Source: Halostella salina (lineage in GTDB: Archaea > Halobacteriota > Halobacteria > Halobacteriales > Natronoarchaeaceae). Taken from it: 64,000 bases of DNA. How positions within the stretch are numbered: the first letter of the stretch is position 1; every line of letters starts with the position of its first letter. The translations under genes were made by a program, and so were the position numbers. The notes below the pieces were generated by a model. The model searched no databases and was not told the origin of the DNA. It saw only the letters and a program-made list of their open reading frames with translations. Location of the stretch: assembly GCF_003675855.1 (NCBI RefSeq), contig NZ_RCIH01000009.1, positions 62,001 through 126,000 of the forward strand. Reading direction: 5' to 3'. Shown here one piece after another: positions 16,080 through 58,665 of the stretch.

Positions 16080-16454
16080 TCAGATACGCCGAAGTGGTTC
16101 GTCACGGGAGCGTTTCGTTTTCGATGTCACCGTGCAGTCCAGCGTCACTGGCTCACCGTCTGGCCCACCAAACTCCCAGGGCGGATCGGATGTAGGAACA
16201 TCAGCGTCGTAGATGGCTGGCAGTTCGACACCGAGCCAGACAGCGATCACGGGGAGCGAGAGATCGCTGTGGGTGTGAACGAGCGCACCGAACAGCGGCC
16301 CATCTTGCCAGTCCGAGACATCCCCTCGGTCTTGCAGCCACATTGCGAACAGCGATCCCAGTGACGATGCTCGATCAGCCCCGTGATACAGCGCATATTG
16401 GTTTCCATGATGGATCTCCCACTTGTAGGAAACCGGATCGTGATTATCGGCCAT
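16080..16454 (-). CDS. Hypothetical protein of 124 residues
   Basis: It reads KWEIHHGNQYALYHGADRAS, LFAMWLQDRGDVSDWQDGPL and LPVIAVWLGVELPAIYDADV. I do not recognise it. The ATG is the MADNHDP codon; an earlier in-frame start seven codons upstream is less likely. Its ATG shares the tetranucleotide CATG with an ATG on the plus strand. I treat that as a reason to place the plus-strand gene's start further downstream. Confidence 0.55.
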   Translation of the reverse strand: MADNHDPVSYKWEIHHGNQYALYHGADRASSLGSLFAMWLQDRGDVSDWQDGPLFGALVHTHSDLSLPVIAVWLGVELPAIYDADVPTSDPPWEFGGPDGEPVTLDCTVTSKTKRSRDEPLRRI

Positions 16455-16610
16455 GCGGATTCGTTCAGTCAGCAACGCTATATTTGAAAGTGCTGGTTTA
16501 GCAGGTCTTGAGCCGTTATTCGGACAAGCCGAGTCATCGGATTTCTCGTTTTTAACCCCAGATATATCATCACTGAGCAGGCCTGAGAGGAGGGTATACT
16601 TCCACAGAAA

Positions 16611-16616
16611 TTTTAA
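16611..16616 (+). promoter_or_regulatory. TATA-like box before the 402-residue HTH protein
   Basis: TTTTAA within AATTTTAACAG lies 26-31 bases before the GTG at 16642. It is the reason for choosing that start. Confidence 0.4.
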
Positions 16617-16641
16617 CAGTAGTGCGATAGTTGAAAGTCAC

Positions 16642-17850: not shown

Positions 17851-17971
17851 ACTGTTTGTGCCGTTTTTTCTCTGTGGCTACCGGAATGTATCGATCTAAA
17901 TCAAGCAGGAAATCGACAGGGAGACCGTGTGCAATGGCACGTTCATGCGGCACAAAGTGTACAAACGCCAT
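17819..17971 (-). CDS. Possible small protein of 50 residues
   Basis: The minus-strand frame reads MAFVHFVPHERAIAHGLPVD then FLLDLDRYIPVATEKKRHKQ, a plausible compact protein with a basic tail. It overlaps the end of the convergent gene by 32 bases. No family recognised. Support is the amino-acid pattern only. Confidence 0.3.
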   Translation of the reverse strand: MAFVHFVPHERAIAHGLPVDFLLDLDRYIPVATEKKRHKQFIQGRDEEEC

Positions 17972-26894: not shown

Positions 26895-26896
26895 CG

Positions 26897-28072: not shown

Positions 28073-28198
28073 ACAGGTCTCCGTGTACTCACCATTTGAA
28101 GCAACCCACTTAAGTTACTGTTCGCGGACCGGTGTCGTTCGGAAACACTCTTGTCACCCCCCGACCCGATCATCTCCGGTGCGACTCCCGCTTGGCTC

Positions 28199-41359: not shown

Positions 41360-43266
41360 GTATACCCCCGGAACAGGTTCCGGACCAGATCCATCAGCGT
41401 TGGCCCGACATCGCCCGCCCCGGTGTACACGACGCGGTCGAAGTACGTGTCGTGGTCGTATTCGTCGTCAAGGTACACCCCAAACACGGGACAGTGGCAC
41501 TGATCGACGGCACGTTCGTACGCATCGATGTCGTCCGCACGGCCGTCGGTGACCACCACGACGAACGGAACCGTACCGCTACCGTGGCCTGCACGGTGAC
41601 GGGCTACGGTAATCGCATCCGACAGCGGGGTACTGCCGGCTGCCCGTCCGGACACTAACCGATCGGACCAGGCGGCGGGGCGCGCACCGAACGGGAGTTC
41701 CAGATTCACGACCGACTCGTAGAGCGAACACACGGATACGTCGACGCCGACCGAGTGAAGTGCCACCGCTAGCTGACAAACGGCGTCCTCCGCGGGGATG
41801 ATACGGTTCGCCATCGTTCCGGACCGATCCAGAAACAGCTGGCAGGAGTAATCCTTGTCCTTTCCGGGTGTGAGCCGACTGAAGACCCGGTCTGACCCGT
41901 GGACTGCACTAACGAGCTCGCGGCTGTCGACGGTTCCTCGACGTGACCGCGGCTGTTTCCTGGGCCGTCGCTCCTTGCGGAGCCGTGAGTGCAACTGGTG
42001 TTCGAGTCGTCGAGCGCCCTTGCGTATCTCCGCCCATCGATCCGCCGGGCCACCCTCGTCCGTGGGTTCGAGAACCCGGATCCGGTCGACGTCCATGTCG
42101 TCGTCGGTGACCATCGTGACCAGGGTGGTCACGTCCTCCCGGACCTGTGCGTCCGGACTGAACCCGCCGCTTGCGTGGCGCCGGCGTACCCCGTCGACAT
42201 CAAGATTCGTGATTCCCGGGTCGGGGTCCGTCGGGTCGATCGCCACACTACCGCTCTCGTCACCGCTCACCGTTTTGCCGGCACCGTTGCCGTCCGTGTC
42301 GAGTCGTGCCGCCTCCTGTGGCGACCAGTCGCTCGCAGCGACCACGTCCGAGGGCTGTACCTCCGGCGTCTGGATGCGGCTCCGCTGCAACGAAGGGAGA
42401 TTCCGGAATATCGGACGGATCGTTTCAAAGAAGGTTCTGGCGCGCTCGACTCGCCTTCCGGGGTCGGGTTCGTTCCGCATCTCCGCCATGTACTCGTCGA
42501 CCAGCGCATCGATCTCGACGGCGGTGTCTCGATACTCCCCTTTGAGCTGCCGCCAGGAACAAGCCGGGTCCAACAGCTCTCGACAGCGGCCACTATCGAC
42601 TGTACCACGGTCCAGTAACGACAGCGAAAGCGCCTCGTAGACGGTGTACTCCTGAACTGGCGTTGCCCCGTCGCCCCCGCGCTCAACGGCCATTGTCAGG
42701 TTCGCCTCGACCGGCAGAACGGTCCGCACCGAGTCTGGGACAGCCGTCTCACTGAACTCCGCGACGAACTTGCGGTGACGGCGGTCTGCGATCCGAAACA
42801 GCGACGCACTCTTGAGGACGAAATCGTCGTGAATCCGGAATGCATCCGCCATCTGGGCCTCGATAGCGGCGTCCTCGGCTGCATTGTAAACGTGTTTGAA
42901 CAGCGACTGCCAGCGCGGGTGTATCTCGTCGATATGGGTGGCAAAGCGGTCGAAGCCGGAGTACAACACGTGTCCGAGCTCGTGGAACAGGAACGCCACC
43001 TGCATCAAGCGATCCCAGACGACAGGGTCAACGTCCGACAGGACCTGTTCGTACCGTCGTGTCGGGATCCGGATCTCATAGGAATCGGGGGCTTCCTTCG
43101 GCCGACACGAAGCCTCCGACGATGTGAGTCGAACGTGGATATCCGTCTCTCGGGGTGTACAGAGCGACGCGATCCGCTCTAACTCCTTCCGGCGGGCCTG
43201 TGATGACCGACGTGGGGTCAGCGACGCGACTGCCGCGTCCGGATCCGTCTCCTCAGTCAGATACAT
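41356..43266 (-). CDS. VWA-domain protein with N-terminal HExxH domain, module B
   Basis: The 636-residue paralogue of the module-A VWA protein. HELGH (95-99) lies in FLFHELGHVLYSGFDRF and is followed by YNAAEDAAIEAQMADAF. The C-terminal VWA has the MIDAS residues LDRSGTM, AGSTPLSD and VVTDGRADD. The linker is disordered (DPTDPDPGITNLDVDGVRRR) and a basic patch RLRKERRPRKQPRSRRG precedes the VWA, as in module A. The gene overlaps MoxR by 14 bases and the HEAT gene by 4, so strict stoichiometric expression is likely. The HExxH Glu and His residues are conserved in both copies, which argues for a metal-binding role. Confidence 0.85.
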   Translation of the reverse strand: MYLTEETDPDAAVASLTPRRSSQARRKELERIASLCTPRETDIHVRLTSSEASCRPKEAPDSYEIRIPTRRYEQVLSDVDPVVWDRLMQVAFLFHELGHVLYSGFDRFATHIDEIHPRWQSLFKHVYNAAEDAAIEAQMADAFRIHDDFVLKSASLFRIADRRHRKFVAEFSETAVPDSVRTVLPVEANLTMAVERGGDGATPVQEYTVYEALSLSLLDRGTVDSGRCRELLDPACSWRQLKGEYRDTAVEIDALVDEYMAEMRNEPDPGRRVERARTFFETIRPIFRNLPSLQRSRIQTPEVQPSDVVAASDWSPQEAARLDTDGNGAGKTVSGDESGSVAIDPTDPDPGITNLDVDGVRRRHASGGFSPDAQVREDVTTLVTMVTDDDMDVDRIRVLEPTDEGGPADRWAEIRKGARRLEHQLHSRLRKERRPRKQPRSRRGTVDSRELVSAVHGSDRVFSRLTPGKDKDYSCQLFLDRSGTMANRIIPAEDAVCQLAVALHSVGVDVSVCSLYESVVNLELPFGARPAAWSDRLVSGRAAGSTPLSDAITVARHRAGHGSGTVPFVVVVTDGRADDIDAYERAVDQCHCPVFGVYLDDEYDHDTYFDRVVYTGAGDVGPTLMDLVRNLFRGYT

Positions 43267-44203
43267 CGCTGAGTTGTCTGTCGATGAGCGTCCGGATCAG
43301 CGACTCGTCGTACTCGTCGACGCGCGCGACGAGTTCACTCCGCGCAGCCTCGGTGAGCGTCATGAACTCGTCCTCCATGAACCGGGCAATCCGGATGATC
43401 TCTCGGCTGGTGATCGGCGTCGCTAGTTCCCCGTCGGAATGGGCTTCCCGGAGCCGCTGTGCGAACGACACCAGCCGTTCGATCTCCGGTTCTCGCTCCC
43501 GGGCGAGGTTCGTCCGGTCGAACACGAGATCAACCTCGATCGATTCGGGCAGGTAATCGAGTTTGATGTGGCGAAAGCGGTCCTCGAAGGCGTCGTTCAG
43601 TTCGTAGGTCCCCTGATAGCCTGGGTTCGACGTTCCGACGACGCGGAACTGGTCGTGTGGCTGGATCTGCTCGCCCGTTTGAGGCAACGTCAGCGACCGC
43701 GTCCCGCGCTGTTCCATAACCGCGTTCAGCGCCGCCGCGGTGTTGGCGTCGGCCGCGTTGAGTTCGTCGAGGAGCAACACACCACCGACACGCGCAGCCC
43801 TGGTGAGCGGCCCGTCAACCCACTCCGTGACCGTCTCACCGTCGTCGCCGCTGACGAGGTGAAGCGAACCCAGCAGGTCCTCGCGGAACGTCGTTTCGGA
43901 GAGCGTGATCCGGTACAGGGGACGGTTTGTCTGCGCACAGACGTACCGAACCAGGAAGCTCTTGCCGACACCCGGCTGTCCCTTCAACACGACGTTCATG
44001 CCGAGGTCGAGGGCACGCGTGACTACCTCGACGTCAGTCCGGTCGCTCTCGCCTGCACGCTCGTGATACGTCTCCTGTTCGATCTCCGGAACTCGATCGT
44101 GGCCGATATCGTTTAGAACCGTCAGTTCCCGGAACCTGCGATCCGTCGGTTCCCCGGCCGTCTCAAGCGCCGATCGGCGCTGACTCGTCTCCGCGTCACT
44201 CAT
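43253..44203 (-). CDS. MoxR-type AAA+ ATPase, module B
   Basis: The 316-residue protein has Walker A GQPGVGKS (75-82), Walker B GVLLLDELNAAD and FRVVGTSNPGYQGTYELND in the sensor-1 region, followed by FEDRFRHIKLDY. It is closely similar to module A across the AAA core but lacks the N-terminal winged-helix-like extension, so the extra domain is the main difference. Walker A has Gln in place of the usual Pro at the second position. As first gene of the operon it starts about 15 bases inside GC-rich leader sequence; a promoter is not obvious. Confidence 0.9.
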   Translation of the reverse strand: MSDAETSQRRSALETAGEPTDRRFRELTVLNDIGHDRVPEIEQETYHERAGESDRTDVEVVTRALDLGMNVVLKGQPGVGKSFLVRYVCAQTNRPLYRITLSETTFREDLLGSLHLVSGDDGETVTEWVDGPLTRAARVGGVLLLDELNAADANTAAALNAVMEQRGTRSLTLPQTGEQIQPHDQFRVVGTSNPGYQGTYELNDAFEDRFRHIKLDYLPESIEVDLVFDRTNLAREREPEIERLVSFAQRLREAHSDGELATPITSREIIRIARFMEDEFMTLTEAARSELVARVDEYDESLIRTLIDRQLSDVSD

Positions 44204-45152: not shown

Positions 45153-46523
45153 ATGGCCTCAACACAGAACTGGCAAGGTCTTGGAGGCGGTGGACTCCGA
45201 ATTATGTTCAAGATCGTTGAAGATCTTTACGAGAAACCGGGCTATGTCGTGGAAGTCGATACTGAACAAACACTTAAAGACGATCCAGTGTCTTCCCCAT
45301 ACACGCAAGGAAAAGAGGCAAAAGAAGAGGATAATGATAAACTGACCCCATATCTGCAGTCTGAGAACGGTGCTGCCGATATTTACTTAACCGGCTCAGA
45401 TACGAACACAACAATACTGAGTGAACTCCGAGACGAGCACGATCATATAAATGATATTACCCAGGGACGAGGAAACTATTTTAAGACTATTGTGAAGGGT
45501 GTTACTGGGTCTGGTACGGGAGCCACGCCCGAACAGATGGTGGATATTATTGAATCTAACCCCGAGGTCAAAGAGAAAATACTCGAGATCATTCCTGAAA
45601 ACGTCGGATTGTACGTGCCGGTTTTCTCATTAGATGGCGGATCTGGAAACGGAACATTCCGTAAAGTATTGGACTTCATGGACAAAGATGGAGAAATGGA
45701 ACGCCGGAACTCGATGCCCTCTCAGACGATTCCAGTCGCTATTGCTCCTCACGAGATCGATCAGCGGGAAGCAGAGTCGCATCGAGTCTCCGAAAATATG
45801 GTCAAAACCCTCGAATTGGTCGAGTCAAGGCTCGATAGTGCAGGTTCCTTGAGTTCCTGTATACTAGTTGATAACGATGCAGCGGCACTAAACACAATGT
45901 GTAATAACTTTAGATATACATTAGACGAACTCAAGTCAATCAAAGATCCAATTCTAATTGAAAAGAACTTTCGAGAGCTAATTAAAAACGCAGGTACTGA
46001 GATTGTTCCCTACGAACAAGCAAACCAAGCGATTCGAGAAAGCCTCTTTCCATTCTTTATCATGAATATGGAGGGGCCGCACGGAGTTGAATTTGGAAAG
46101 AGTGGTGGTGGGGGATACGAAATTAGTGATTACAGTCGGTTCTTTGATAACTACACCATCCCCTCATTCTTGGAGATTCCAACTCGGAGACACGCAGACG
46201 AACTTCTACCAAACTACCGGGTTGAGGACTTCGCAGATGAGGCACGCTTCCTTACATTCTATACATTCTTAGCATCGTGTGCACCAATGCACGGCCCCGA
46301 TATTAACAATATCAAGGTGTTCATTTGGACGGATCAAAACAACAAGATCGATAATGAGGTTAAAAGTCAAATTCGCAGCCAACTTGCCGAGATCGGGATC
46401 AACCGGAATAAAGTTACTGTAGACTCCGTTAAAGGGTTAACAGATCCGAAACACACGATGAAGATCTGGACGTATACAGGCGTCGATAACGCCGCTGAAC
46501 TCATGAAAAACAAGTTTGAGTAA
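45153..46523 (+). CDS. FtsZ/tubulin-superfamily GTPase-like protein 1
   Basis: The 456-residue protein has the glycine-rich first loop GLGGGGLRIMFKIVEDLYEK (9-28), a GVTGSGTGATPE segment (117-127) and the tubulin-signature-like loop VFSLDGGSGNGTFRKVL (157-173). ILVDNDAAALNTMCNNFRY resembles the Asn-Glu/Asp nucleotide contact helix. These are the marks of the FtsZ/tubulin superfamily, but overall sequence differs from FtsZ and CetZ, so it belongs to a divergent FtsZ-like group. It probably polymerises with GTP at or near the membrane, because the next gene encodes a TM protein. It is AT-rich and faces the convergent minus-strand operon with the second tubulin. Confidence 0.75.
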   Translation: MASTQNWQGLGGGGLRIMFKIVEDLYEKPGYVVEVDTEQTLKDDPVSSPYTQGKEAKEEDNDKLTPYLQSENGAADIYLTGSDTNTTILSELRDEHDHINDITQGRGNYFKTIVKGVTGSGTGATPEQMVDIIESNPEVKEKILEIIPENVGLYVPVFSLDGGSGNGTFRKVLDFMDKDGEMERRNSMPSQTIPVAIAPHEIDQREAESHRVSENMVKTLELVESRLDSAGSLSSCILVDNDAAALNTMCNNFRYTLDELKSIKDPILIEKNFRELIKNAGTEIVPYEQANQAIRESLFPFFIMNMEGPHGVEFGKSGGGGYEISDYSRFFDNYTIPSFLEIPTRRHADELLPNYRVEDFADEARFLTFYTFLASCAPMHGPDINNIKVFIWTDQNNKIDNEVKSQIRSQLAEIGINRNKVTVDSVKGLTDPKHTMKIWTYTGVDNAAELMKNKFE

Positions 46524-46524
46524 G

Positions 46525-46977
46525 ATGGTAGTGGAACAATCTCCTATTATACTCGGTTTGCTCTCACTGATATCTGTTGTTAGTCTTGTCTCCCTGTATT
46601 ATGCCATTCAGATCAACAATAGAGTGATTTATATAAGTGACAGCATGGAACCAGGGGGTAGCGAACAGGTCGATCCAGATACTCTTGAATCATTATCAAC
46701 GCAGGTGGAAAATCTAAATAAAAACACTGGGGATTCGGATACAGACATCACAGATATCAAACAGCAAATTAAAGAAGTAAAGGAGATAGTCGAAAATACG
46801 GATACACATCGGGCCGCCGATGATGATCCAGAGGGTGAAAGTAGTGCTACTACGGAAGAAGGCAAGCAAAAAGATATATCAGATGCAACAGAAAGTTACG
46901 CTGAAACCGAGACAGAGGAGGATGTCGGGTTCGAACCGGACCGAATACACATTGAGGATCAGGACGAACCTGGTTGA
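46525..46977 (+). CDS. Single-TM protein with coiled coil and acidic tail
   Basis: An N-terminal hydrophobic segment (IILGLLSLISVVSLVSLYYA) anchors the protein. A coiled coil follows (LESLSTQVENLNKNTG, IKQQIKEVKEIVEN), then a long acidic disordered tail. The ATG lies two bases after the stop of tubulin-like gene 1, so the two are co-translated. Acidic tails after a TM helix resemble membrane tethers for cytoskeletal polymers such as the FtsZ anchors. That role is inferred. 150 residues. Confidence 0.65.
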   Translation: MVVEQSPIILGLLSLISVVSLVSLYYAIQINNRVIYISDSMEPGGSEQVDPDTLESLSTQVENLNKNTGDSDTDITDIKQQIKEVKEIVENTDTHRAADDDPEGESSATTEEGKQKDISDATESYAETETEEDVGFEPDRIHIEDQDEPG

Positions 46978-47063
46978 TACTATATGATTCCTTGAGTATT
47001 GAAGTATCTCTCGTATAAATAAATTCATACCCATCTACTGAATTTTACTATATAGTATTTTAT

Positions 47064-50000
47064 TTATGCACTCCAGTCACTTATACTGTGTTCGGGCGGT
47101 TCAAGCACCACAGGTTTGCTTCGCCACTCAGTGAATTCAGCAGTTCCGTCGTCGGTTCGACGCCGAACGGCCGAAAGCTCCCTTACCTGTTTATTTGCTT
47201 CATCGTCGCACTCGTAGCGCGTGGTGACTTCGAGTTCGTACCGATGACCGAGACGGTCGATCGTCTCCATGATCGGTCCGATGGTCGTGTGTTCTCCCGA
47301 GTTCAGCGTCCGATTCACTGACTTCTCGGACGATACATCATCCCCGTTTACACCGAATTCCGTCAGTTCCACCTGTTGATCAGTAGTGTTCGTTATCCGG
47401 ATATCGAGTTCAACCCGAACGTCAGAGAGATCATCTGAATCATCCTGTTCGGTGAGCGTGGCGTTGTCGACTTCGACCGAGAGTGGGTAGCTCTCCGTTC
47501 GTTCCACCACCGACCACAGGCACATAGATGCGCTGGTGTTGTCTTTGAATTTCACTGCCATCCGCATCAGGTCTGGGTGTTCATCAGCGTCAGAAACAGC
47601 CGTTGAGAACGAGAACCGCTGTCTGTCGTTAGCGGCTACCTGTTGCGTTCGTGGTGTGTGTGACTCATCGAGTGCATCGACATATATTTCTTCGATCTGA
47701 TACTCCGTGTCCGTGTAATTCCATACTGTCACGTGGACTTTCCCACTAGGTCGGTCTTCCACCAACTGACCGAAAACTGCCAAGTCAGAGGAACGGGATT
47801 TGAGCGTCCGAGCATCTGTACGAGCACTCCCATCGCCATCTTCTATCCACAATTCCTGTAGGCCTGTTTGCTGACCCGGTTTGAGGTAATGGATCCGGTT
47901 CCATGTTTGCTGTTCACCGGGATGTATTGGCCCGATATCACTCAGACAACCTTCATCACTCAAGAGATCGAGGTCGGATGCAGTAAGATTTCCCTCGTTT
48001 TCGACCGTGACCTGTTCAACGATCATCTGGCCGGTAGTGTCCTCAATACCTGCTGTTTCAAGATGTGAAGTTAGCAACTCCTCCTCCTGATTGGAAAGCG
48101 ATGCTGTGACATTTCGCTTTGGACCAGGAACAGTCGTGGTTCGCCTGTTGACCGTTAGCTCCGTCGACGCATCCGAAGCTTGGATCTCACCAACCGCTTT
48201 TGTATTCCCCGTGTTCGGTCTCAATCCGATCTTTGTCGATCCTTTCGATAGAAGTCGTTGAATCCATTTTTCTTTGAAGGGGAGAACGAAATGTGTCCTT
48301 CCTGGCGGAAGCTTTGTATCGAGATGGTACTGTTGCCCTCCGACAGCTAATTGGAGATCGTCAGCTAGCGGACTATCGAGTGTGTTCCGTACGACAGCTC
48401 GAATCCCGTTCTCACTCTGGACGATTGCGCCGGAGATGTCAAGATCGATCGCCGGTATCGTCGCTTCGACCGACTCGACTGCCTGCCCATCAATATGTAC
48501 TTCGACATCGATATGTCGCTGTTGACGGTACGGAACTTGAATCGTGACAGAGACTTCGCCGTCCGTATCCAGTTCCTCGATCGAGTACTCTCGCACCTGC
48601 TCGTCCTCAAATCGGAGGTTGCCCGGACGTTTTCGGATTAGCGCTATATCGTTGATCTGTCGGTCGGTTTTGTTATCGACGTCCAGTTCGAGAATCGTTT
48701 CCTGATGGTCGATCCGAACGAGTGACAGATCGCAGTCAACGTTTGGATTCGTGAGATCTGAATTTGCTGTATCGGCACTATGAACATCCGACTTGAACGG
48801 GACCGAACGGCCCACTCCCAAGGTTTGTTCTGCATCCCCTGCCTCCTGAGAGCTTTCCGTCTGGGATTGTGAAGGGCCGGCAAAATCCACTAAGCTGTTT
48901 TCCGCTATTTCAGAGCTTTTTGTCTGTTCTGAGGCTGTACTTCCGCTTACCCTGTCTTGATTCGCGGTGGCCGTAGGCTTCAATTGTTGAGGTTCAACCG
49001 TGGCGTCGGTATCAGATTCTATCGAGCCTGACGGCTTCTCGTGCGTTGGAGTTGATCCCTCAACTCCATTCGAATATTTTGAGTCTTGGGGTGTAGCTTC
49101 TGAGTCTTCGTTGACAACCTCGAGAGGTTCGCGGTATACGGTAGTGTCAGTATGTGCAAGTCGCAACGCCACCGTCACTGTATTCCCAGCCTGCTGTTCG
49201 ATCGAATCCGGAAGCGGAAGCACGATCTCGCCCTCAGTCCCGTTGACTGATGTTCGAGATTGTTTGAGCTGCTCGTCTTCGTGTGTCAGGACTTCATACT
49301 CGAACAGAACGGCCGTCTCGGATGGTTTTGTGTATGATGTTTCGAGAGTATTCTGTGGGGTCGATATTCGGTCGTCAGTGAGAGTTATCTCCGGAGTTGG
49401 GTCAGCAACACCGTACCGGATCGCTTCGCCGTCTGCAAGCGCGATACATAACGTTCCGTCATGACTTTGAACGATCTCGTACGTATCATCCCCCAATGGG
49501 GAGTGTTCACCTGGAAGCGCTCCGACAGTGAGAAGTTGTTGTTCGCTTTGGCCGAGGATTTCGGTGCGTCCCCCAGCTCCGGCGAGTTCCACGCCAGCAT
49601 GATCACTGCTCGTTTTTACCAAGCCGTCTCTTCCGACCCAGTAGATCGCTGCATCAGTAGTCACGACGATACTATCTCCAAGCGCCGCAACGGAAACGAT
49701 CGGTGAGTCAAACGACCGATTGAACTGTATCACACCGGTTTCGTCGTAACAGCGGAGAGTCTCCTGGGACGTACATGCGAACCAAGACCCGAGATCAAAC
49801 AATTGACGGCGATTTGGCGTGAGTTCGACCCCATCAATCGGGAATCGGACGCTGCCGGATACCGTGTTGAGTCCAACCATACTCCCGTCCACGCGGAGCG
49901 CGACGAGGAGGTCGCTCTCGCTAAGGGCAACAAGTTCGGTAACGTCAGACTGCCAGTTGTCCTCCAGCGAACCAATATCCGTTATCGTTGAGATAGACCC

Positions 50001-50240
50001 ATCAAAGACGCCGTAAATTGAGTGATCAGCTGCGAGAGCGATTTCATCACACGTAGTCGACACCTCTGTCTCGTACTGTTCGACACCTCCCTCGTGAAAT
50101 ACGTGGATCCGATCAGCTTCAGTAGCGATAGCGATCCCATCACCGGTTGCCCCATACGCTGTCGGAACTCTAATTCGAGTCGTATTGATCCGACCGAAGC
50201 CGACGGTATCGAGCAATGAGTCGAGTTCAGGAGCAGTCAT
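47064..50240 (-). CDS. Beta-propeller and Ig-like repeat protein of 1058 residues
   Basis: Residues about 1-270 form a propeller-like series of blades (HSIYGVFDGSISTITDIGSL, SLRVDG-type turns, SIVVTTDAAIYWVGRDGLVK). A disordered Ser/Thr/Glu-rich stretch (about 390-490) follows, then four or more Ig-like beta sandwiches (LVRIDHQETILELDVDNKTD; VEVDNATLTEQDDSDDLSDV; VELDIRITNTTDQQVELTEF). No signal peptide or TM is seen, although such domains are usually extracellular. It may therefore be a cytoplasmic scaffold. It is the last gene of the minus-strand tubulin operon, 160 bases after its neighbour. Confidence 0.65.
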   Translation of the reverse strand: MTAPELDSLLDTVGFGRINTTRIRVPTAYGATGDGIAIATEADRIHVFHEGGVEQYETEVSTTCDEIALAADHSIYGVFDGSISTITDIGSLEDNWQSDVTELVALSESDLLVALRVDGSMVGLNTVSGSVRFPIDGVELTPNRRQLFDLGSWFACTSQETLRCYDETGVIQFNRSFDSPIVSVAALGDSIVVTTDAAIYWVGRDGLVKTSSDHAGVELAGAGGRTEILGQSEQQLLTVGALPGEHSPLGDDTYEIVQSHDGTLCIALADGEAIRYGVADPTPEITLTDDRISTPQNTLETSYTKPSETAVLFEYEVLTHEDEQLKQSRTSVNGTEGEIVLPLPDSIEQQAGNTVTVALRLAHTDTTVYREPLEVVNEDSEATPQDSKYSNGVEGSTPTHEKPSGSIESDTDATVEPQQLKPTATANQDRVSGSTASEQTKSSEIAENSLVDFAGPSQSQTESSQEAGDAEQTLGVGRSVPFKSDVHSADTANSDLTNPNVDCDLSLVRIDHQETILELDVDNKTDRQINDIALIRKRPGNLRFEDEQVREYSIEELDTDGEVSVTIQVPYRQQRHIDVEVHIDGQAVESVEATIPAIDLDISGAIVQSENGIRAVVRNTLDSPLADDLQLAVGGQQYHLDTKLPPGRTHFVLPFKEKWIQRLLSKGSTKIGLRPNTGNTKAVGEIQASDASTELTVNRRTTTVPGPKRNVTASLSNQEEELLTSHLETAGIEDTTGQMIVEQVTVENEGNLTASDLDLLSDEGCLSDIGPIHPGEQQTWNRIHYLKPGQQTGLQELWIEDGDGSARTDARTLKSRSSDLAVFGQLVEDRPSGKVHVTVWNYTDTEYQIEEIYVDALDESHTPRTQQVAANDRQRFSFSTAVSDADEHPDLMRMAVKFKDNTSASMCLWSVVERTESYPLSVEVDNATLTEQDDSDDLSDVRVELDIRITNTTDQQVELTEFGVNGDDVSSEKSVNRTLNSGEHTTIGPIMETIDRLGHRYELEVTTRYECDDEANKQVRELSAVRRRTDDGTAEFTEWRSKPVVLEPPEHSISDWSA

Positions 50241-50401
50241 CTGACGGTTATAGATGTTATAGATCTTATTTTAGATGTTTTTTGTGGTCTAGCGGTTTAC
50301 CATCTGGCCGTGAACCACATGGAAACGAGCCCCAAGTCATTCGATCTACTCCGTCAGGGTGGGGTCACAAAATGTTTTATTATACCAAATGACAAATACA
50401 G

Positions 50402-51979
50402 CTATCCTTGATGCTCAAGGCGTCTAAGTAGGTCCTTTGGTTTGGGGTCTTGGTACAGTTTGCGTACGGTCGTGAGCAACTTGTTGGCGCCGAAGATGAT
50501 CCCCTCTGCCTTGTCGGCGTTCCCCTTTGACGCTTCCTGTGATGCGTTCTCGATGAGTTCCTCGGCCAAGTTGGTGAACTGTTGTGGGATTAGGCTGTGT
50601 CGCTTGTCATCCCCGAAAATGTAGTTCTTCTTGATATTGTCGAGTCGGTCGCGGGTCTCTTCGACATCGGTCGGTTCATCGGGACCGCGACCCTTAATAT
50701 CGACGACCAGATCGTCGATCACCTGCAGTTTTTCACTTGCTATGAACCGATCAAGCGGATCGGGGTCCGCCGAACGGTCAAGGGATTCGGTTACAGTGTC
50801 GATCCGGCTTTTCAGCGTCGAACTTAAGACCTCGATCCCAAATTCACTGCACTCCTCTTTCACTTTCTCGGCGCGAGTTTCGAGACTATCGACATCCTCT
50901 GTCCCACGCTGAAGCCGGCGTTTCTGTCGCTCGTATTGATCCAGTTCGTCGAGGACGGTCCCAAGCGACTCTTCGAGTTGTTGCGGTTCAGTCTCCTCCT
51001 CGTTACGGAGATCGGTGAGAAGTGACTCTGCAGCAGAATTATGGACCGAACGCTCTGCGAGCGCATCAGCTGCTTTCCGTGCTTTTCGTTTGCCAAATCG
51101 TCCATCGTTGATATCCTCGTGTAATTTGTTAAGAATCGCGTCGGGACTTGCCATCGGATACATATCTCCGAAAATCCCTTCAATGGATTTGCGGAGCGTC
51201 TCTAGTTCCGTCGTGTACTGGTCGACCTCACTCTCTTTCTCCGCAAGCTCATCAGCAGCTTCCAGCATCAATTCCGAGAGGACACGCAGAGCATCGATCG
51301 AATCCGCCGAAGTATTATTTTGCTGCTTCTCAACAGCGCTTTGGATATCAGTACCAATAGCGTTAAGATCGGTTCCAAGATTTCCATTCCGGTTCGGCGG
51401 CTTTACATCATCGTCCAACGGGACATTGTCGAGGACTGCCCGTATTTCTTCAACCTCCTGTTCTTTGGTAGCGAGAGCATTGAAATCCTGTTCCAGAATG
51501 CGTTCGTACTGGGTGGGGACATTGGATCTACTGAGCTGATGTGCTAGATCATCAGTAGTCGTGTCTGACGGTAAATCGAGGCCAGTGACCGTTCTCTGAA
51601 TGCTCCGCATCTTGGTGGCCTCGCCCCCATCAGCGATCACTAGATCGCCAGCTTCAGCCATCTCGGTTAACTCTACCGACTTCTTGAACGTGGAGAGAGA
51701 CTCCGTTTCCTGGCGCTGTCTGGTATTCGTATTCTCCCAGATTGCCTCAATATTCGATTCGTACGCTTCCAGCGTCGATGTGTAGTCGTTTCGGGACAGG
51801 TGGATGTACCCCAATCTGCTCAAGAAAAGTTCCACTCCGAGAATAGCCACCGCACCGAAAACGAGTCCGAGAGCAACGGCTGGGACTCCTGCGGATCCAA
51901 ACACTTGACTCCGGACTAAATCGCCCTGTATAAGTAACTCATCCATCGCACTAAACTCGAGTAGCTGGGGTCCAATCAT
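50402..51979 (-). CDS. Membrane-anchored coiled-coil protein of 525 residues
   Basis: One N-terminal TM segment (AVALGLVFGAVAILGVELFL) is followed by about 450 residues of helix and coiled coil (ALATKEQEVEEIRAVLDNV; LAEKESEVDQYTTELETLRK; QYERQKRRLQRGTEDVDSLE). I chose the ATG reading MIGPQLLEFSAM, 4 bases after the stop of the zinc-finger tubulin gene; an ATG 11 codons later is also possible. Coupling to the tubulin gene suggests it recruits or spaces filaments at the membrane. That is inference from layout. Confidence 0.65.
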   Translation of the reverse strand: MIGPQLLEFSAMDELLIQGDLVRSQVFGSAGVPAVALGLVFGAVAILGVELFLSRLGYIHLSRNDYTSTLEAYESNIEAIWENTNTRQRQETESLSTFKKSVELTEMAEAGDLVIADGGEATKMRSIQRTVTGLDLPSDTTTDDLAHQLSRSNVPTQYERILEQDFNALATKEQEVEEIRAVLDNVPLDDDVKPPNRNGNLGTDLNAIGTDIQSAVEKQQNNTSADSIDALRVLSELMLEAADELAEKESEVDQYTTELETLRKSIEGIFGDMYPMASPDAILNKLHEDINDGRFGKRKARKAADALAERSVHNSAAESLLTDLRNEEETEPQQLEESLGTVLDELDQYERQKRRLQRGTEDVDSLETRAEKVKEECSEFGIEVLSSTLKSRIDTVTESLDRSADPDPLDRFIASEKLQVIDDLVVDIKGRGPDEPTDVEETRDRLDNIKKNYIFGDDKRHSLIPQQFTNLAEELIENASQEASKGNADKAEGIIFGANKLLTTVRKLYQDPKPKDLLRRLEHQG

Positions 51980-51983
51980 GAGC

Positions 51984-53765
51984 TCATCCCTTGTTTTCCC
52001 GTCCAAGCAGACTAAGTTGTGTCTGCATCTGGTCAACATACGGTCGGAGGCCCTGTTCTTCGTCTTCCTCAATAAGGTCCCCCAACCCCCGTGGATAGAT
52101 CTGTTCGTATGGACCCGACAGAGAATCTCCGTCTTCGGTCAGCAGTTTCGCCTTTGCACCGTCTTTGTCGGGGAGGATCTCCGTAAAAACCTCTTCGGCC
52201 GTTTGTTCAAGCCTGGGCATCTTCGGGTTCCACATGAGTCCCCACAGATAGAGCCGATCTCTCGATTCCTCCGGAACGTGGGTATGGTCTACGTTGATCT
52301 CCATATCAGAGAGCGACCCTTCGGCGTCAAAATCTTCCCGAAGAACCTCCTTAATTGTCGTTTCGATGCCTGCCTGCATTTCCCGTTCGTATTGATCCAT
52401 GATATTTTTAGAACCGTAGAAAATGAAGGCACCACCCCACGCTGAACCAGGGTCAAAGTCGATAAGCTGACCCAGATTCAGTGCTCGTCGGATGAATTTC
52501 TTGTTCCGGTTCGGGAACCGACCCCGCTTAGAATATAGGACAGGTGCGCCAATCACTGCCGGGAGGAAATCAAGCTGGGATATCGGGTAATTAGTCTTTG
52601 GCGGATTGATCAAGTCGGGGACGTCCAACCCGCGAGGGGATCGAGGGGCATCGTATTCTGGATTGGATGTCATAGACATTACTTCAAGGTAGTGGATCAA
52701 GGCCTTGTTCGCTTCCTGTAATCCAGCGGATGTAGACACCGAGAGATCCGGATTGTTCTGCAGTCGGTTGTAGCCAATATCAAACCGGATGAGATTTTCG
52801 TCGGTCTGTTTCAATCGGTTATTATCAAACAGTATGGCGAGATCCGAGAAACGTCCCAGTGTCCCTAACCCAAAGAGACTATTAACTTTGTTTTCATCAT
52901 TCCAGACTTCATCGCTGTCATCATCCGGGTCAGGCAGGATCGATGTTGTTAGGATCGGTTTATCAAGGTTGAAATTCGGAGTACCGTGTATTTCGTCCTC
53001 GTCATCACTCGCGTATTTGATTTGGTGTAACAGTTGTGTGATTAGCCCGGTTGCACCCGTCCCAGTACCTTTGGCGATACTATGTACCAACAGCAAGGCC
53101 TGAGCACTTTCTAGTGCCTCACGTTCGATATTGAACCGTTCGAAAATACTTCCACTGGAGATCTCCTGCCACATCTGGGTCCGACCAACAAAGGGACTCT
53201 CACCCGCGCCATCACCGTCTTGACCAATCACGTGATCCATCGGGTGATTTGAGTCCCGCTTGATGTAATAGGTCGATCCGAGTTCCTCCTGATTGGTATC
53301 AAGGAGCGTTTGTCCCTGGATTGCGCCGTCCCAGAGATCGGTTCTTGGGGACCGATCGTCAAGCGACTCTCGCCGGAGCAGAGTCGCGTCAACGACACCA
53401 CTCCCTGCACCGCCGACACCGATCAGATACCATTTGTTTCCGGTCTGAATTTCTTGCTGTTCCTCATTTGGGTTGCTATGCTGTGAGCCACTACTGTCCT
53501 GATCTGTGGTTCCAGTTGATTGCGTGCTGGTGGTCTCTTCGTCGGTGTCCTCAGACGACTCCCCGATGAAGTCATCAATGGAATCAACTTCTTCGTCGGA
53601 GCTCACTTCGTCGTCTGGGTCTGAATCCGCCTGGTCATGCCCAGACGACCCCATCGGAATGGCATCACCATCCGCGTCGTGTTCCTCAACTTTGTGCCGT
53701 TCGAACTTAACAATGTTATCGAATTCTTCACCGCACTCGGGACAGAAGTGTTCTTTTCCACTCAT
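51984..53765 (-). CDS. FtsZ/tubulin-superfamily protein 2 with N-terminal C2H2-type zinc finger
   Basis: Residues 5-30 form a C2H2-type finger: FCPECGEEFDNIVKFERHKV with Cys8, Cys11, His24 and His29. An acidic linker of about 80 residues follows. The GTPase-like core begins at WYLIGVGGAGSGVVDATLL (113-130), the FtsZ glycine loop. GQTLLDTNQEELG (151-163) matches the FtsZ Asn-Thr-Asp region. The tubulin signature is SIAKGTGTGATGLITQLLHQ (229-248). The C-terminal half is less familiar (GSAWGGAFIFYGSKN). A zinc finger on an FtsZ-type GTPase is an unusual fusion. The gene is third in a minus-strand operon after the kinase-like and multi-TM genes, with gaps of 3-4 bases on each side. Confidence 0.8.
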   Translation of the reverse strand: MSGKEHFCPECGEEFDNIVKFERHKVEEHDADGDAIPMGSSGHDQADSDPDDEVSSDEEVDSIDDFIGESSEDTDEETTSTQSTGTTDQDSSGSQHSNPNEEQQEIQTGNKWYLIGVGGAGSGVVDATLLRRESLDDRSPRTDLWDGAIQGQTLLDTNQEELGSTYYIKRDSNHPMDHVIGQDGDGAGESPFVGRTQMWQEISSGSIFERFNIEREALESAQALLLVHSIAKGTGTGATGLITQLLHQIKYASDDEDEIHGTPNFNLDKPILTTSILPDPDDDSDEVWNDENKVNSLFGLGTLGRFSDLAILFDNNRLKQTDENLIRFDIGYNRLQNNPDLSVSTSAGLQEANKALIHYLEVMSMTSNPEYDAPRSPRGLDVPDLINPPKTNYPISQLDFLPAVIGAPVLYSKRGRFPNRNKKFIRRALNLGQLIDFDPGSAWGGAFIFYGSKNIMDQYEREMQAGIETTIKEVLREDFDAEGSLSDMEINVDHTHVPEESRDRLYLWGLMWNPKMPRLEQTAEEVFTEILPDKDGAKAKLLTEDGDSLSGPYEQIYPRGLGDLIEEDEEQGLRPYVDQMQTQLSLLGRENKG

Positions 53766-53768
53766 GAT

Positions 53769-55880
53769 TTAATTTGTAATTTGGTTAGTCGCCCAGTTCT
53801 CGTACTCAGCTCCAAGATTCATCACTGCGGGGGACAGTCGCTGTCCCTCTGCAACAAGTGAACGTGTTCCCGCGAATCCGTTTGATGAGGTGATTTTAAT
53901 TCGTTCATCAGTTTCCGTCTCTTCTACCAGATCAACACTACTCCCTTCCGAGCGTAGGAACTCGATCAGTTGATTGATTGTTTCCTCTGTCGCGATATCG
54001 TTTTGATCGAGCGTGAGTTCTACAGGACGGCTGTTCGCGCTCCGCATCTCCATCTTTATTCTTTCTATGATATCGATAACCCCTTCGTTCATCGGTTCAC
54101 CGGGGTTTTCCTGTTCTTCCTCAGTTTCACCCGGATCCTGATCGGGGATCGAGGTAGTTTCCCGTTTCACGGTGATCTCATTATCCGACAGTTTGAATTC
54201 GAGATCCGTCACTGATGGGAACTGGTCCGTCACGGCGTTTGTAAACGCTGCTTGGAGTTCAGCGGTCCACACACTACCGAACGACGACCAGTCATCGACC
54301 TGAGTAATCGTGTCAGAATTGGAATCCAACTGATCGATGACGGAGTATTCGATGTCCTCAAGCACGACGAGGATATCTCTCGCCGTTTCGATCGACTCTT
54401 CTAGTTCCGTGACGAGTTCCTGAGGAACTCCTGTCGGATTGACTGGGTTCTCTCGACCCCCATGGAATCGCTCTATCACGCTGGACTTACGATTTTGGAG
54501 CTCAGCTGCAGACACTGTATAGTCACAAACGTCTTGAATCCAGTACCGATCGAGCGTTTCACCGATTGGACCGCCGATCGAGTCAACTGCGGACTCAACA
54601 ATCTCCAACTCGGATTCAAGCTTGTCGAGTTTCTCCTCGAACACCGCTTCACGTTGGTCGAGTTGTGAGTCAAGTTCGTTGATCCACTCATCGACTTCGG
54701 CAAGCGATGTTTCGATGTCGGTGATCGGTTCTGGATTGTGTCGAATGATCGCCACTAGTTGTTCACTAAGCGGTGGTTCCTCCTCGGATAGAACGATCGT
54801 TTCGTCGATAGAATTCAGAGAACGCTCCTCGTGGAGAGAGTACTGTTCGCCGAAACGGGAGTCGAATGCCGTTTTCGACCCATCAAATTGTTCCTCAACG
54901 GTGAACTCCATCGCATCTCGGATCTGGTCATCGATCATATTGCTGTAGAAGTTCACCGGGAACTCGTTGGCCTCCGCCTCAAGTTCGGCAGCTCGTTCTT
55001 CTAACTCGTCTGTGCCCAGCTCATCCCTATTATCTAATGCCTTCTCGGCGTCCCCGATAACGCGGTTCAAATTACTCGCGTGGTTCGCAATTGATCTTTT
55101 GGCCGGTTTCCATGGTTGCGATTGGCCATCTTTGTCATTGAAAAACACCTGCACTGGCGTTCCGACGTTCTGTTCGAAGTCCTGTTGGAACGACTGCTTG
55201 AGATTCGTTGCCTTGTTTTTCACCGTCACTATCCTGCGTAGGGCCTCTTTTCTGCGGACTCGTTCCCAAGGATGCAGCCGGTACGATGAGTACAGACTGC
55301 CCAGTACGATAACCGGTATTGTATAGAACATTGCAATCTGGCCAGCGGGAACGCCACGGTTGAACAGGTCAAGGTACATCAATGACAGCAGGACGTAAAC
55401 TATGCCTGACAGGCCAAACGCGAAGAAGGCCAATCGATCCCCCGGTGGGAACTGATCAAGGTCGTCCGTGAGCGTAGTGAACTGAGCAACAGCCTGCGTA
55501 CAGGAGGCAATCGCCGTGAGAGCAAACAGAATCAGAACGACGTACGACTGCGAGAACGTGATTGCTGCGACCTCACCCAGCACAGCCGTATCCCGAAGCG
55601 TTACGGCGATCGTTCCAATAAGTGGAATTGGGTCAACCAGATTGACTCCGGTGAGTGCGGAGAGCGCTTGCAACGTCGATGCAAAGATCGGTACTGCACC
55701 GATGACCCAGAGGAACAGCGGAATACGGGGAGCCCGACTGTCCTGATCAAGCTCCTCTACCGGCTCGGCATCGGTGCCATACGATTCCTCGTTGAAGGTG
55801 ACAGAGTCCTCAATGTCGCTTGTACCTCCATCTGTAGCTGTTTGCCTCCCGCGATCGGTGGTTTCGGATCTTCGTGTCAT
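53769..55880 (-). CDS. Multi-TM protein with large coiled-coil cytoplasmic region
   Basis: After an acidic 50-residue head, four or five TM helices are visible (IPLFLWVIGAVPIFASTLQA; SYVVLILFALTAIASCTQAV; LAFFAFGLSGIVYVLLSLMY; IAMFYTIPVIVLGSLYSSYR). About 490 residues follow, dominated by coiled coil (LDSQLDQREAVFEEKLDKLE, then SELEIVESAVDSIG) with a beta-rich C-terminal domain (VTDLEFKLSDNEITVKRETT). It ends 3 bases before the zinc-finger tubulin gene. It looks like a membrane platform for the complex. No transport motif is visible. 703 residues. Confidence 0.7.
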   Translation of the reverse strand: MTRRSETTDRGRQTATDGGTSDIEDSVTFNEESYGTDAEPVEELDQDSRAPRIPLFLWVIGAVPIFASTLQALSALTGVNLVDPIPLIGTIAVTLRDTAVLGEVAAITFSQSYVVLILFALTAIASCTQAVAQFTTLTDDLDQFPPGDRLAFFAFGLSGIVYVLLSLMYLDLFNRGVPAGQIAMFYTIPVIVLGSLYSSYRLHPWERVRRKEALRRIVTVKNKATNLKQSFQQDFEQNVGTPVQVFFNDKDGQSQPWKPAKRSIANHASNLNRVIGDAEKALDNRDELGTDELEERAAELEAEANEFPVNFYSNMIDDQIRDAMEFTVEEQFDGSKTAFDSRFGEQYSLHEERSLNSIDETIVLSEEEPPLSEQLVAIIRHNPEPITDIETSLAEVDEWINELDSQLDQREAVFEEKLDKLESELEIVESAVDSIGGPIGETLDRYWIQDVCDYTVSAAELQNRKSSVIERFHGGRENPVNPTGVPQELVTELEESIETARDILVVLEDIEYSVIDQLDSNSDTITQVDDWSSFGSVWTAELQAAFTNAVTDQFPSVTDLEFKLSDNEITVKRETTSIPDQDPGETEEEQENPGEPMNEGVIDIIERIKMEMRSANSRPVELTLDQNDIATEETINQLIEFLRSEGSSVDLVEETETDERIKITSSNGFAGTRSLVAEGQRLSPAVMNLGAEYENWATNQITN

Positions 55881-56028
55881 GACTCACTCAGCTACCGATC
55901 GATATCAGATTCGTCTTCTTCGGTGCCCTATTGCGATCCAACAATGGACAAAATACTAACACACCTCAAAACGAATATTTTGGAAATCATAAATCTGTTG
56001 GCCATACCAGTATTCGGGTATGGGCCGA

Positions 56029-58665
56029 TCATCGGTGAGATGCCGGTTCGTGGATCGACAGTAAATTCGAGAGATCCCGTTTAGTTGGGTCCGGGTGCAT
56101 CGCATTGACTACGTACTGATCGATCCACTCGGGGGCCGAAGAGGTGTATTCCGAGGGAAGTGGGAGATACTGATCGATTGTGTCGGGATGGATGACGATC
56201 CGATCGCCGACCGGATGAATGTGATGTGGGACGACCCCAGTAATCATTTCGTAGAGCAGAGCACCGGCACGATAGATATCAGTCGCGTGACTGGGAGTTG
56301 CCTCGACGGACTTGAACTCCTCAGGTGCCGCATATTCAAGATGCAATGGAAGGTGCAGCCGATCTCGATAGAATTCCCACAGACCCACATCGGCGAGTTT
56401 CGGCACGATCGAAGTGGTTTCGCCCTGTTGGCGGAAGTAGACGCGATCAGGGGAAAGACACCGATACTCGATGCCGTTATCATGCAGTTTCGAAAGGACC
56501 TCCGCCACGTTGCGGATGATAAAAACTGCATCTTCCCAAGGGAGCGGCCCATCGTCGAGATGTTGCCGAAGGGTTCCCCCGTCCGGAAACTCCGTCGCAA
56601 TATAGGCGTACTCGGCTGTCTGGGGGGAGGATCTGGGAAGCCAGTCGTAGAGGCTGACGATTCGGTCGTGCTCCATTGACTGCGCTTGCCAGCATTTGAG
56701 CGCATCTTCGAGCTGGATTAGTGGATCTTTCTCTTCCTCTTTGTCATAGTACAGGGGGAATTCCCGTACTGCAACGGGAGACGTTATCTCTGAAGTTCCG
56801 TTACTTGGAGCGGAACCATCGGGGGCGTTTACGCTTCCTCGCCAAATCTGCGGCTCAGTCGATAGCTCCGGCACATGTTCGACATCCTGAATCGACAGGA
56901 GAAGTCCCGCCCTCGGTGTGAACGGTGGTGCGATGAACTTACGATGACCGGAGGAATCCGAAGGTCCACCGTGGTAGTCTACGCGTCCGCTGTCAACGAG
57001 CCGATCGACCGTGTCAAGGACGGAAGTGAGGACGAAAACGTGGATAGCAAGGCTATTCGGATCTCTGCGGAAGCTCTCATAATTAATGGAATCCGGTATT
57101 GAATCGTTTGAGACCCTCGCCAGAGGATCAGAAGACAAGAGGTTAAGCAGTGTGAAGTGCGGAGGTGTCTCCGAGTACCCATACTCGGCTTCGACGCGGG
57201 ACTGGAGGCGGTTGTAGATCGCGGCATACTGGTGTCTCAGCTGTTCCGGTACCGAATAACCGATTTCATGGGATGTAACGGGGAGATGTTTAAACAGGTC
57301 ATGCGGATCGAACAGTTGGCTATCCTCAATCAGGTCAGTAGCCGATCCCTGTACGTCAACCATTTCTCCGGGGTAAACGATCCTGGCATCCCGTTCCCGT
57401 TCCAGCGCCTCATATACAAGTGGGGCTATGATCTCTGCCGAGAGTGCGAGCGAGTCGATGGTCGTAGCCGGATCTACCTCATGAGTAGCAAAGAGATCCC
57501 CTCGACTGCCGATCTCTTCTATTGTCTCGATTAGTTTAATCAGAAGATTCTGGTAGAACCGTCCGATATCGTTATTCTTGTCCGGAAGGTCCCCGATAGC
57601 CTTTGCTGCGGTTTCCGAGGGACTGTGTTGATCGACATCGTACTGGAACTCGATGGGGATGGAAATCGAATCTCGTGATCCCGCTTCAACCGTGGCAGTT
57701 ACAGTCGGTGCGTCGAACCACTGTTCGTTCTCAGGGACAGTCGCTTCGACAACGTATTTGCCCACTGGGAGATCAGCAGCAACTACTGTGCCTTTCGACC
57801 CAGTAGTTGTACTGTCGAATTCAATTCCTGTATCTGAGTGCGTGCAGGTGACATCAATACCGGCTGTCGGAATATCAGAGACACTCGTCTGGATCTTCAG
57901 ATCACCCGCCTCCAGACTGACCCCCCAATGAACGATCCGATCCCCACTATCGAGATCAATCTGCTTGGGTAGTGGATCAATTCCCCGTTGGAATTCCACT
58001 TGATCGCACTGTGCCGGGAGCTCAAACGTCAACTGTTCACCATGGGTCGTTTGGCGTTGGACTTCCCATCCATTCCCATCTTCGGTGAGTACGGAACAAT
58101 ACGAAGAGTTGATATCCAGGTCATCAGTCGGGATGATAACAAGCCCCTTCGGCGGCAAGGTTACAGACTTCTGAATTGGGTTATCTCTATCTGGATATAT
58201 GGTAAAATCCGTTGTTGTAGTGCATCCGTTTCGACTTACTGTTAGTTCATAATTCCCGGGAGGGAGTTCTAATTCAATCGATTTTTTCTCCCCACTTCGG
58301 ATGTCATAATTCAAAATGGCTTCTCTTTTGTTTCGATCAAAAACAACCTCTGCGGACTCTCTCTGTACCCTTCCGGAGAGAGTACCCTCTTCTTCATTCT
58401 GTAAATTGAGGGTGTATTCAGAAACGGCCTCATTGGAGCCGAAGACTAAATCTTCATTCTCTGTGACAGTAAGCAATAATGTACCTGTTTGCATATCAGT
58501 CGAATCGTTTTCATCATCGCTATCGGGATTATTCTCAACAGCCTCCCCTATCTCATTCCCCGTTTCAGTAGCGACAACTCGGTGAACAACTATCAACACG
58601 AAAGTTGCTAGTGAAGCGGCGAACATAACCCACAGACCCACTACCACTATACTGTCCGGTAACAC
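56029..58665 (-). CDS. Membrane-anchored protein with Ig/CarboxypepD-like domains and C-terminal pseudokinase
   Basis: A GTG start gives 878 residues with a TM segment at 4-28 (VVVGLWVMFAASLATFVLIV). Beta domains follow, including a carboxypeptidase-regulatory-like unit (GIDVTCTHSDTGIEFDSTTT) near 275-340, and then a helical region. Residues about 640-870 have the protein-kinase C-lobe: LSKLHDNGIEYRCLSPDRVY (HRD loop as YRC, catalytic Asp replaced by Cys736), LADVGLWEF (DFG as DVG, Asp759), YAAPEEF (APE) and HATDIYRAGALLYEMITG (subdomain IX). No clear VAxK lysine is seen. It is therefore probably a pseudokinase sensor or scaffold. It lies 150 bases upstream of the multi-TM gene. Confidence 0.75.
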   Translation of the reverse strand: MLPDSIVVVGLWVMFAASLATFVLIVVHRVVATETGNEIGEAVENNPDSDDENDSTDMQTGTLLLTVTENEDLVFGSNEAVSEYTLNLQNEEEGTLSGRVQRESAEVVFDRNKREAILNYDIRSGEKKSIELELPPGNYELTVSRNGCTTTTDFTIYPDRDNPIQKSVTLPPKGLVIIPTDDLDINSSYCSVLTEDGNGWEVQRQTTHGEQLTFELPAQCDQVEFQRGIDPLPKQIDLDSGDRIVHWGVSLEAGDLKIQTSVSDIPTAGIDVTCTHSDTGIEFDSTTTGSKGTVVAADLPVGKYVVEATVPENEQWFDAPTVTATVEAGSRDSISIPIEFQYDVDQHSPSETAAKAIGDLPDKNNDIGRFYQNLLIKLIETIEEIGSRGDLFATHEVDPATTIDSLALSAEIIAPLVYEALERERDARIVYPGEMVDVQGSATDLIEDSQLFDPHDLFKHLPVTSHEIGYSVPEQLRHQYAAIYNRLQSRVEAEYGYSETPPHFTLLNLLSSDPLARVSNDSIPDSINYESFRRDPNSLAIHVFVLTSVLDTVDRLVDSGRVDYHGGPSDSSGHRKFIAPPFTPRAGLLLSIQDVEHVPELSTEPQIWRGSVNAPDGSAPSNGTSEITSPVAVREFPLYYDKEEEKDPLIQLEDALKCWQAQSMEHDRIVSLYDWLPRSSPQTAEYAYIATEFPDGGTLRQHLDDGPLPWEDAVFIIRNVAEVLSKLHDNGIEYRCLSPDRVYFRQQGETTSIVPKLADVGLWEFYRDRLHLPLHLEYAAPEEFKSVEATPSHATDIYRAGALLYEMITGVVPHHIHPVGDRIVIHPDTIDQYLPLPSEYTSSAPEWIDQYVVNAMHPDPTKRDLSNLLSIHEPASHR

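Follow-up and report, generated by a model that had tools for sequence, protein, structure and literature searches.

Few roles are recognised for the tubulin superfamily in archaea, namely division by FtsZ and shape by CetZ. The present analysis concerns a group of seven genes at positions 45153-58665 of a 64,000-nt stretch of DNA from Halostella salina (GCF_003675855.1, NZ_RCIH01000009.1, 62,001-126,000 of the forward strand; hereafter, the window), among them a gene for a divergent tubulin-superfamily GTPase, P0001. Of the closest described groups, FtsZl1 has been reported with VWA, kinase, and GTPase neighbours, and a function in membrane remodelling was proposed for it (Makarova and Koonin 2010, PMC2875224). 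In the passages considered here, a study of 2023 distinguished Halo.Tub, a group of Halobacterota-restricted CetZ/tubulin-like proteins with quasi-tandem copies, coiled-coil neighbours, and a distinctive C-terminus (Santana-Molina 2023, PMC9871819). A first-pass annotation of the window had interpreted the locus as an undescribed remodelling system of the FtsZl1 type, with two tubulin-like filaments and nearby VWA/MoxR modules as an ATPase arm. Of that interpretation, the superfamily membership of P0001, the co-conservation of the minus-strand genes, and the presence of a pseudokinase stood, but the FtsZl1 type, the VWA/MoxR arm, and the co-occurrence of all seven genes did not.

A haloarchaeal gene cluster around tubulin-superfamily GTPases

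P0001 (51984-53765, minus strand, 593 aa) comprises, from N- to C-terminus, a C2H2-like zinc finger, an acidic linker, a GTPase domain, and a C-terminal domain. Judged by profile and fold searches, it is a member of the tubulin superfamily, as had been proposed. It scores above the cutoff of PF00091 (E = 5.8e-9, 36.9 bits; cutoff 33), tubulins were the top matches in a sequence search of PDB (E about 0.01), and a Foldseek search with its AlphaFold2 (AF2) model (predicted template modelling score 0.64) retrieved CetZ2 first (E = 3.8e-15), followed by OdinTubulin, CetZ1, and FtsZ. Over 26 orthologs of this family, designated Z1, the conserved loops T1 (GxGGAG), T4 (HSxxxGTGxG), and T6 (FxN) and the T7 acidic pair (D381xxD384) are invariant; in a T1/T4/T6/T7 alignment with FtsZ and CetZ of its own genome, D381 and D384 align with LDFAD of FtsZ and VDSSE of CetZ. 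P0001 does not qualify as an FtsZ equivalog (TIGR00065, 20 bits versus a cutoff of 295.2), and no match to it was found in PHROG. Nor does it match PF13809, the model of FtsZl1, and instead of an FtsZl1-type protein next to VWA it represents Z1 of a different group. The genome contains five other PF00091 genes, two scoring as FtsZ-like and three as CetZ-like, and no further PF00091 gene.

A direct search with P0001 retrieved relatives covering the full domain from 26 other genomes (33-36% identity). By using a 26-row Z1 alignment (A1) for a genome survey, strong matches (E < 1e-100) were obtained in 40 of the 391 genomes sampled from the class (about 10%) and in none of the four other genomes of the genus of P0001. 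A contig scan of 84,980 species, which relies on short peptide patterns that distant relatives could escape, placed Z1 relatives exclusively in Halobacteria, the genera including Natrinema, Halorubrum, Halopenitus, Haloarchaeobius, Halorussus, Halobaculum, Natronomonas, and Haloquadratum. No relative was found among the viral contigs searched. In one genome, a second Z1 copy (G340:C2:21416-23031) is split over two overlapping frames and apparently broken, while the same replicon has an intact copy at another place; the broken copy shares its contig position with a Halobaculum halobium plasmid match.

The gene neighbourhoods were compared over 20 kb around each Z1 relative, and on the downstream side of most, giving 26 other Z1 loci. 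Presence was scored by six-frame profile searches; antisense open reading frames (ORFs) in this high-GC DNA outlength some of the true genes. A single fixed gene order was observed, TM6-Z1-CC5-Z2-c4-c2-Z3-c12-c7-c6, followed by the convergent c8 and a AAA+ ATPase, beyond which stand two or three more genes. TM6, Z1, and CC5 are present in all 26 loci, Z2, c4, c2, and Z3 in 25, and c12 in 23; counted where the downstream sequence sufficed, c7 and c6 occur in 18 loci and c8 in 17. The full cluster contains three tubulin paralogs, Z1, Z2, and Z3 (all above the PF00091 cutoff in locus L043), and the two-filament arrangement first proposed does not represent the typical cluster. CetZ_C (PF21011), present in a control CetZ (L058), is absent from P0001, Z2, and Z3. 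Each paralog forms its own clade apart from FtsZ and CetZ; a joint Z1/Z2/Z3 clade is not resolved by the tree. Coiled-coil and transmembrane (TM) genes sit between the Z copies in 25 of the 26 loci, and TM helices are found in most members of TM6, CC5, c4, and c2, some CC5 proteins having no clear one. CarboxypepD-type domains are present in c12, immunoglobulin (Ig)-type domains in c6, and a propeller in c8. As judged from these comparisons, the cluster is specific to haloarchaea and built around tubulin-superfamily GTPases.

Full clusters were found on plasmid PHS2 of Halobacterium salinarum R1 (OE_RS12075 to OE_RS12005), where OE_RS12070 is Z1 and OE_RS12060 is Z2, and on a Natrinema plasmid; several clusters lie on megaplasmids, and several on contigs at least about 3 Mb long. 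In public annotation, the cluster genes are called 'cell division protein FtsZ' or 'hypothetical protein', and Z3 of the PHS2 cluster (OE_RS12040; L161:14679-15902) is annotated merely as the latter. A literature search found no paper describing the cluster besides the 2023 mention of Halo.Tub. The Z1/Z2/Z3 family is very probably Halo.Tub, matched by the description in the passages of PMC9871819 rather than by sequence identifiers.

The reduced locus of the window and its surroundings

The seven ORFs lie at the positions and on the strands first assigned to them. Five of them, P0007-P0006-P0001-P0005-P0004 (kinase-like, multi-TM, tubulin, coiled-coil, and propeller/Ig), indeed form one minus-strand run, interrupted by gaps of ~150 bases ahead of P0006 and ahead of P0004. 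By homology, this run is a reduced, diverged copy of the haloarchaeal cluster, all five genes corresponding to TM6, Z1, CC5, c12, or c8, and a six-frame profile search of 135 kb around the locus found none of Z2, c4, c2, Z3, c7, and c6. P0006 (53769-55880, minus strand) belongs to TM6 (family hidden Markov model, E = 4.1e-156) and has, by hydropathy, about four N-terminal TM helices followed by a long cytoplasmic coiled coil; its stop lies 3 bases from the ATG of P0001. P0005 (50402-51976, minus strand) is a CC5 member (5.1e-27) with a single N-terminal TM helix and a coiled coil, and the ATG at 51976, likelier as its start than the TTG at 52072, follows the P0001 stop by about 7 bases. P0004 (47064-50240, minus strand), with a propeller and Ig/CARDB-like repeats, is a divergent c8 homolog, matched over several stretches by a c8 profile from which it had been excluded (E = 7.7e-17).

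P0007 (56029-58665, minus strand; PF13620 and PF00069) consists of an N-terminal TM segment, CarboxypepD_reg-like domains, a helical region, and a C-terminal kinase-like domain, and its residues 99-421 match the c12 profile (E = 1.6e-26). VAIK is replaced by VAVRE (Lys to Arg), HRD by YRC, and DFG by DVG, so that the VAIK Lys and the HRD Asp are gone and the DFG Asp is retained; from its sequence, the domain is a pseudokinase, in agreement with the first-pass annotation. Its fusion to a c12-type protein is a trait of the window locus. The P0007 loop YRCLSPDR resembles the degenerate catalytic loops (HASLSPDT and HGALSPET) of kinase-like proteins near FtsZl1 (L145:7800-9500 and 16021-17922), and pseudokinases recur beside divergent tubulins. 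A AAA+ protein at 61030-62757, with two AAA-type P-loop regions, was considered as the AAA+ ATPase of the cluster (c9) and rejected; only the AAA core aligns, not the c9 N-terminal domain, and a second AAA protein of the same genome matches too, so that it was treated as generic.

A similarly reduced locus was identified in one other genome, G080 (L046:2351-7312), where TM6-Z1-CC5 is accompanied by a convergent c8-like gene. Taken together, the two loci point to TM6-Z1-CC5 plus a propeller protein as a minimal core, and also to where interchangeable second filaments may be sought. Directly beside the G080 cluster lie the genes for an FtsZl1 protein (PF13809, 44.5 bits) and a ~490 aa TM partner (L086:15896-19330), i.e. 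two different FtsZ-like systems adjoin. Elsewhere, FtsZl1 and its TM partner occur as an independent pair in other surroundings; in nearly all of the loci L141-L160, a haloarchaeal FtsZl1 gene (~1040-1170 aa) is followed by that for a conserved ~480 aa TM protein, apparently a fixed pair. In the window, P0002 and P0003 occupy the end that corresponds to the FtsZl1 pair in G080.

P0002 (45153-46523, plus strand, 456 aa) has FtsZ-like loops in the correct order, with GLGGGG near the N-terminus followed by VVEVDT, SLDGGSGNGT, and ILVDN. Its stop is 1 base from the in-frame ATG of P0003 (46525-46977, plus strand), which by hydropathy encodes a small one-TM coiled-coil protein, a candidate membrane anchor. 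The close coupling of both tubulin-like genes to TM/coiled-coil genes noted at first is real (gaps of 3, 1, and ~7 bases). Against a Z2+Z3 profile, P0002 reached 15.0 bits, at the top of 668 unrelated real proteins and 5000 shuffles; in the first such test, the only real protein to outscore it was the G080 FtsZl1 protein, a true superfamily member. The alignment covers ~120 residues from the T4 signature loop to the T6 asparagine, and that with a mixed profile starts from T1. No match was found in the Pfam (including PF00091 and PF13809), NCBIfam, PHROG, or PDB libraries. P0002 is quite likely an extremely divergent member of the tubulin superfamily, as judged by these alignments; of the original claim, the loops were confirmed and membership appears probable via the Z2+Z3 profile, but recognition by libraries was not obtained. 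An assignment to FtsZl1 was rejected (-0.2 bits against haloarchaeal FtsZl1 N-termini), as was placement in the tree (branch length 4.19, not interpretable). P0003 has no homolog in the cluster loci, and no other genome searched yielded the pair, so that the expected co-occurrence of seven genes across haloarchaea applies to the five minus-strand genes but not to P0002 and P0003.

Two paralogous modules, each of the type MoxR + VWA-like + HEAT(-PQQ propeller), are located on the minus strand at 25020-34036 and 36887-44203, the two MoxR proteins being mutually homologous, and likewise the two VWA-like proteins. The Pfam-recognised VWA gene (25020-26894) lies more than 18 kb from P0002 in a separate gene run. 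The MoxR proteins score 26.9 and 26.1 bits against the bpMoxR model PF20030 (cutoff 27), which does not place them in MoxR-vWA-beta-propeller ternary systems. None of the 26 other Z1 loci contains a homolog of the VWA protein, the second VWA-like protein, or the HEAT proteins, and only one (G080) has a MoxR-like protein nearby. No link of the modules to the tubulin cluster appeared in the other loci, and they were rejected both as cluster partners and as the ATPase arm once assumed. GC content is 0.51-0.52 in the cluster, 0.45 in P0002, 0.61-0.63 in the modules, and 0.66-0.71 in chromosomal pieces of the same genome. An AT-rich, seemingly mobile region makes up the first half of the window, with an anti-restriction-like gene (phrog_7245, 10848-11849) and a transposase-like gene (phrog_506, 12180-13451).

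Possible function and alternative explanations

As a best guess from the sequences, the cluster may encode an envelope-anchored GTPase cytoskeleton. Z1, with Z2 and Z3 where present, would bind GTP and polymerise into filaments on the cytoplasmic face of the membrane, and P0006 and P0005, whose homologs accompany Z1 in all other loci, are proposed to tether and space the Z1 filament there. P0007 and P0004 may be scaffold or sensor parts, and c12-type and Ig/propeller proteins may link the filaments to the envelope. GTP turnover on the tethered filament could then drive or organise membrane or envelope remodelling, a process suggested to be separate from FtsZ-ring division because two FtsZ-scoring and three CetZ-scoring genes are retained elsewhere in the genome. 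In the window, Z2-c4-c2-Z3 and c7-c6 would have been lost, and P0002 with its coupled P0003 probably provides a second filament subunit together with an anchor for it. Membrane or shape remodelling appears to be the most likely use. The account as a whole, a tubulin-based, membrane-tethered system for membrane or envelope remodelling, is favoured with some confidence, and its precise use with less. More tentatively, the cluster might be an envelope-spanning machine that has no described counterpart, in which three tubulin-superfamily GTPases, each served by membrane adaptors of its own, work with extracellular Ig proteins and a AAA+ ATPase, and whose reduced versions swap in a second filament module (the FtsZl1 pair in G080 and P0002/P0003 in the window); if true, such swaps would show that cytoskeletal modules are interchangeable.

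Several observations speak against this account. The remodelling function is argued solely from the anatomy of the partners, the functions of the members being predicted only, and a system carried by about 10% of sampled haloarchaea is dispensable. Confidence in the P0001 model is only moderate (mean predicted local distance difference test, pLDDT, 59), and Z1 lacks the first glycines of T4 (xKGTGxG versus the usual GGGTGxG), by which hydrolysis could be impaired. For P0002, the hhalign probability was <10%, single-sequence AF2 (there being no relatives to align) gave an unusable fold model (pLDDT 34), and viral, genome-contig, and whole-genome searches found no relatives.

These last results, together with the missing library matches and the failure to find the pair in any other genome, would also fit a reading in which P0002 is outside the tubulin superfamily, its glycine loops are coincidental, and P0002/P0003 is an unrelated orphan pair. 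This is thought unlikely, as P0002 has the top score with the Z2+Z3 profile, in an alignment that spans T4 to the T6 asparagine (and begins at T1 with the mixed profile), its landmarks are correctly ordered, and it is coupled to a TM partner, as the cluster tubulins are. Far less probable, and already largely refuted by the neighbourhood table, is an FtsZl1/VWA membrane-remodelling system in the sense of Makarova and Koonin, with the adjacent MoxR, VWA, and HEAT modules as ATPase arm. The proximity of the two modules to P0002 (within about 20 kb), the kinases and pseudokinases that also occur in haloarchaeal FtsZl1 loci (PMC2875224), and the FtsZl1 gene adjoining the other reduced cluster in G080 would agree with it; however, neither tubulin-like protein is matched by the FtsZl1 model, the modules do not accompany Z1 in other loci, one MoxR-like match aside, and their GC content differs from that of the cluster and of P0002.

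A cytoskeleton for plasmid or virus segregation, similar to TubZ/PhuZ, is just as improbable: several clusters reside on megaplasmids and a transposase gene lies in the AT-rich window region, but several clusters lie on the contigs at least about 3 Mb long, no relative occurs among viral contigs, P0001 has no PHROG match, and the cluster includes many membrane/envelope proteins and no obvious centromere-binding partner. It seems marginally less probable still that tubulin filaments and a pseudokinase sensor form a conflict or defence system against viruses. The patchy distribution (40/391 genomes), the AT-rich island, and the resemblance of the pseudokinase to phage-defence kinase models are in line with this idea, but PADLOC and PHROGs searches of the cluster returned nothing specific, PADLOC matches being limited to kinase models; no nuclease, toxin, or other effector was recognised, and the large gene set is rigidly conserved. 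Envelope-associated remodelling remains the preferred explanation, and the presence of a full cluster on the Halobacterium salinarum R1 plasmid makes the idea of a new membrane-linked cytoskeleton directly testable.

Comparison with known systems

With archaeal FtsZ1/FtsZ2, P0001 shares the GTPase core and the T7 acidic pair, but it falls far below the FtsZ equivalog cutoff, and two FtsZ-scoring genes exist elsewhere in the genome. CetZ (CetZ1/CetZ2 of Haloferax volcanii) provides the closest solved fold to P0001 (4b45, 4b46), whereas P0001, Z2, and Z3 are without CetZ_C and occupy separate tree branches, and the genome already has three CetZ-scoring genes. The likeness to FtsZl1 (Tubulin_2, PF13809) lies in a divergent FtsZ-like GTPase beside membrane proteins and kinases; on the other hand, the FtsZl1 proteins of the haloarchaeal loci compared are ~1040-1170 aa long, include a coiled coil within the one chain, and have a ~480 aa TM partner, P0001 and P0002 do not match PF13809, and VWA is not part of the operon at the window locus.

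The closest correspondence is to Halo.Tub as described in the passages of PMC9871819, since the Z1-Z2-Z3 cluster has several copies and coiled-coil neighbours in 25 of 26 other loci. The window differs from that description in its one clear Z copy, the pseudokinase fusion, and the orphan P0002, and those passages name neither partner families nor adaptors and assign no function. Among the haloarchaea sampled, about 10% have extra tubulin paralogs, usually three, in a cluster of rigid gene order with membrane, extracellular, and AAA+ partners; in the passages of 2023, these paralogs appear only as a phylogenetic group.

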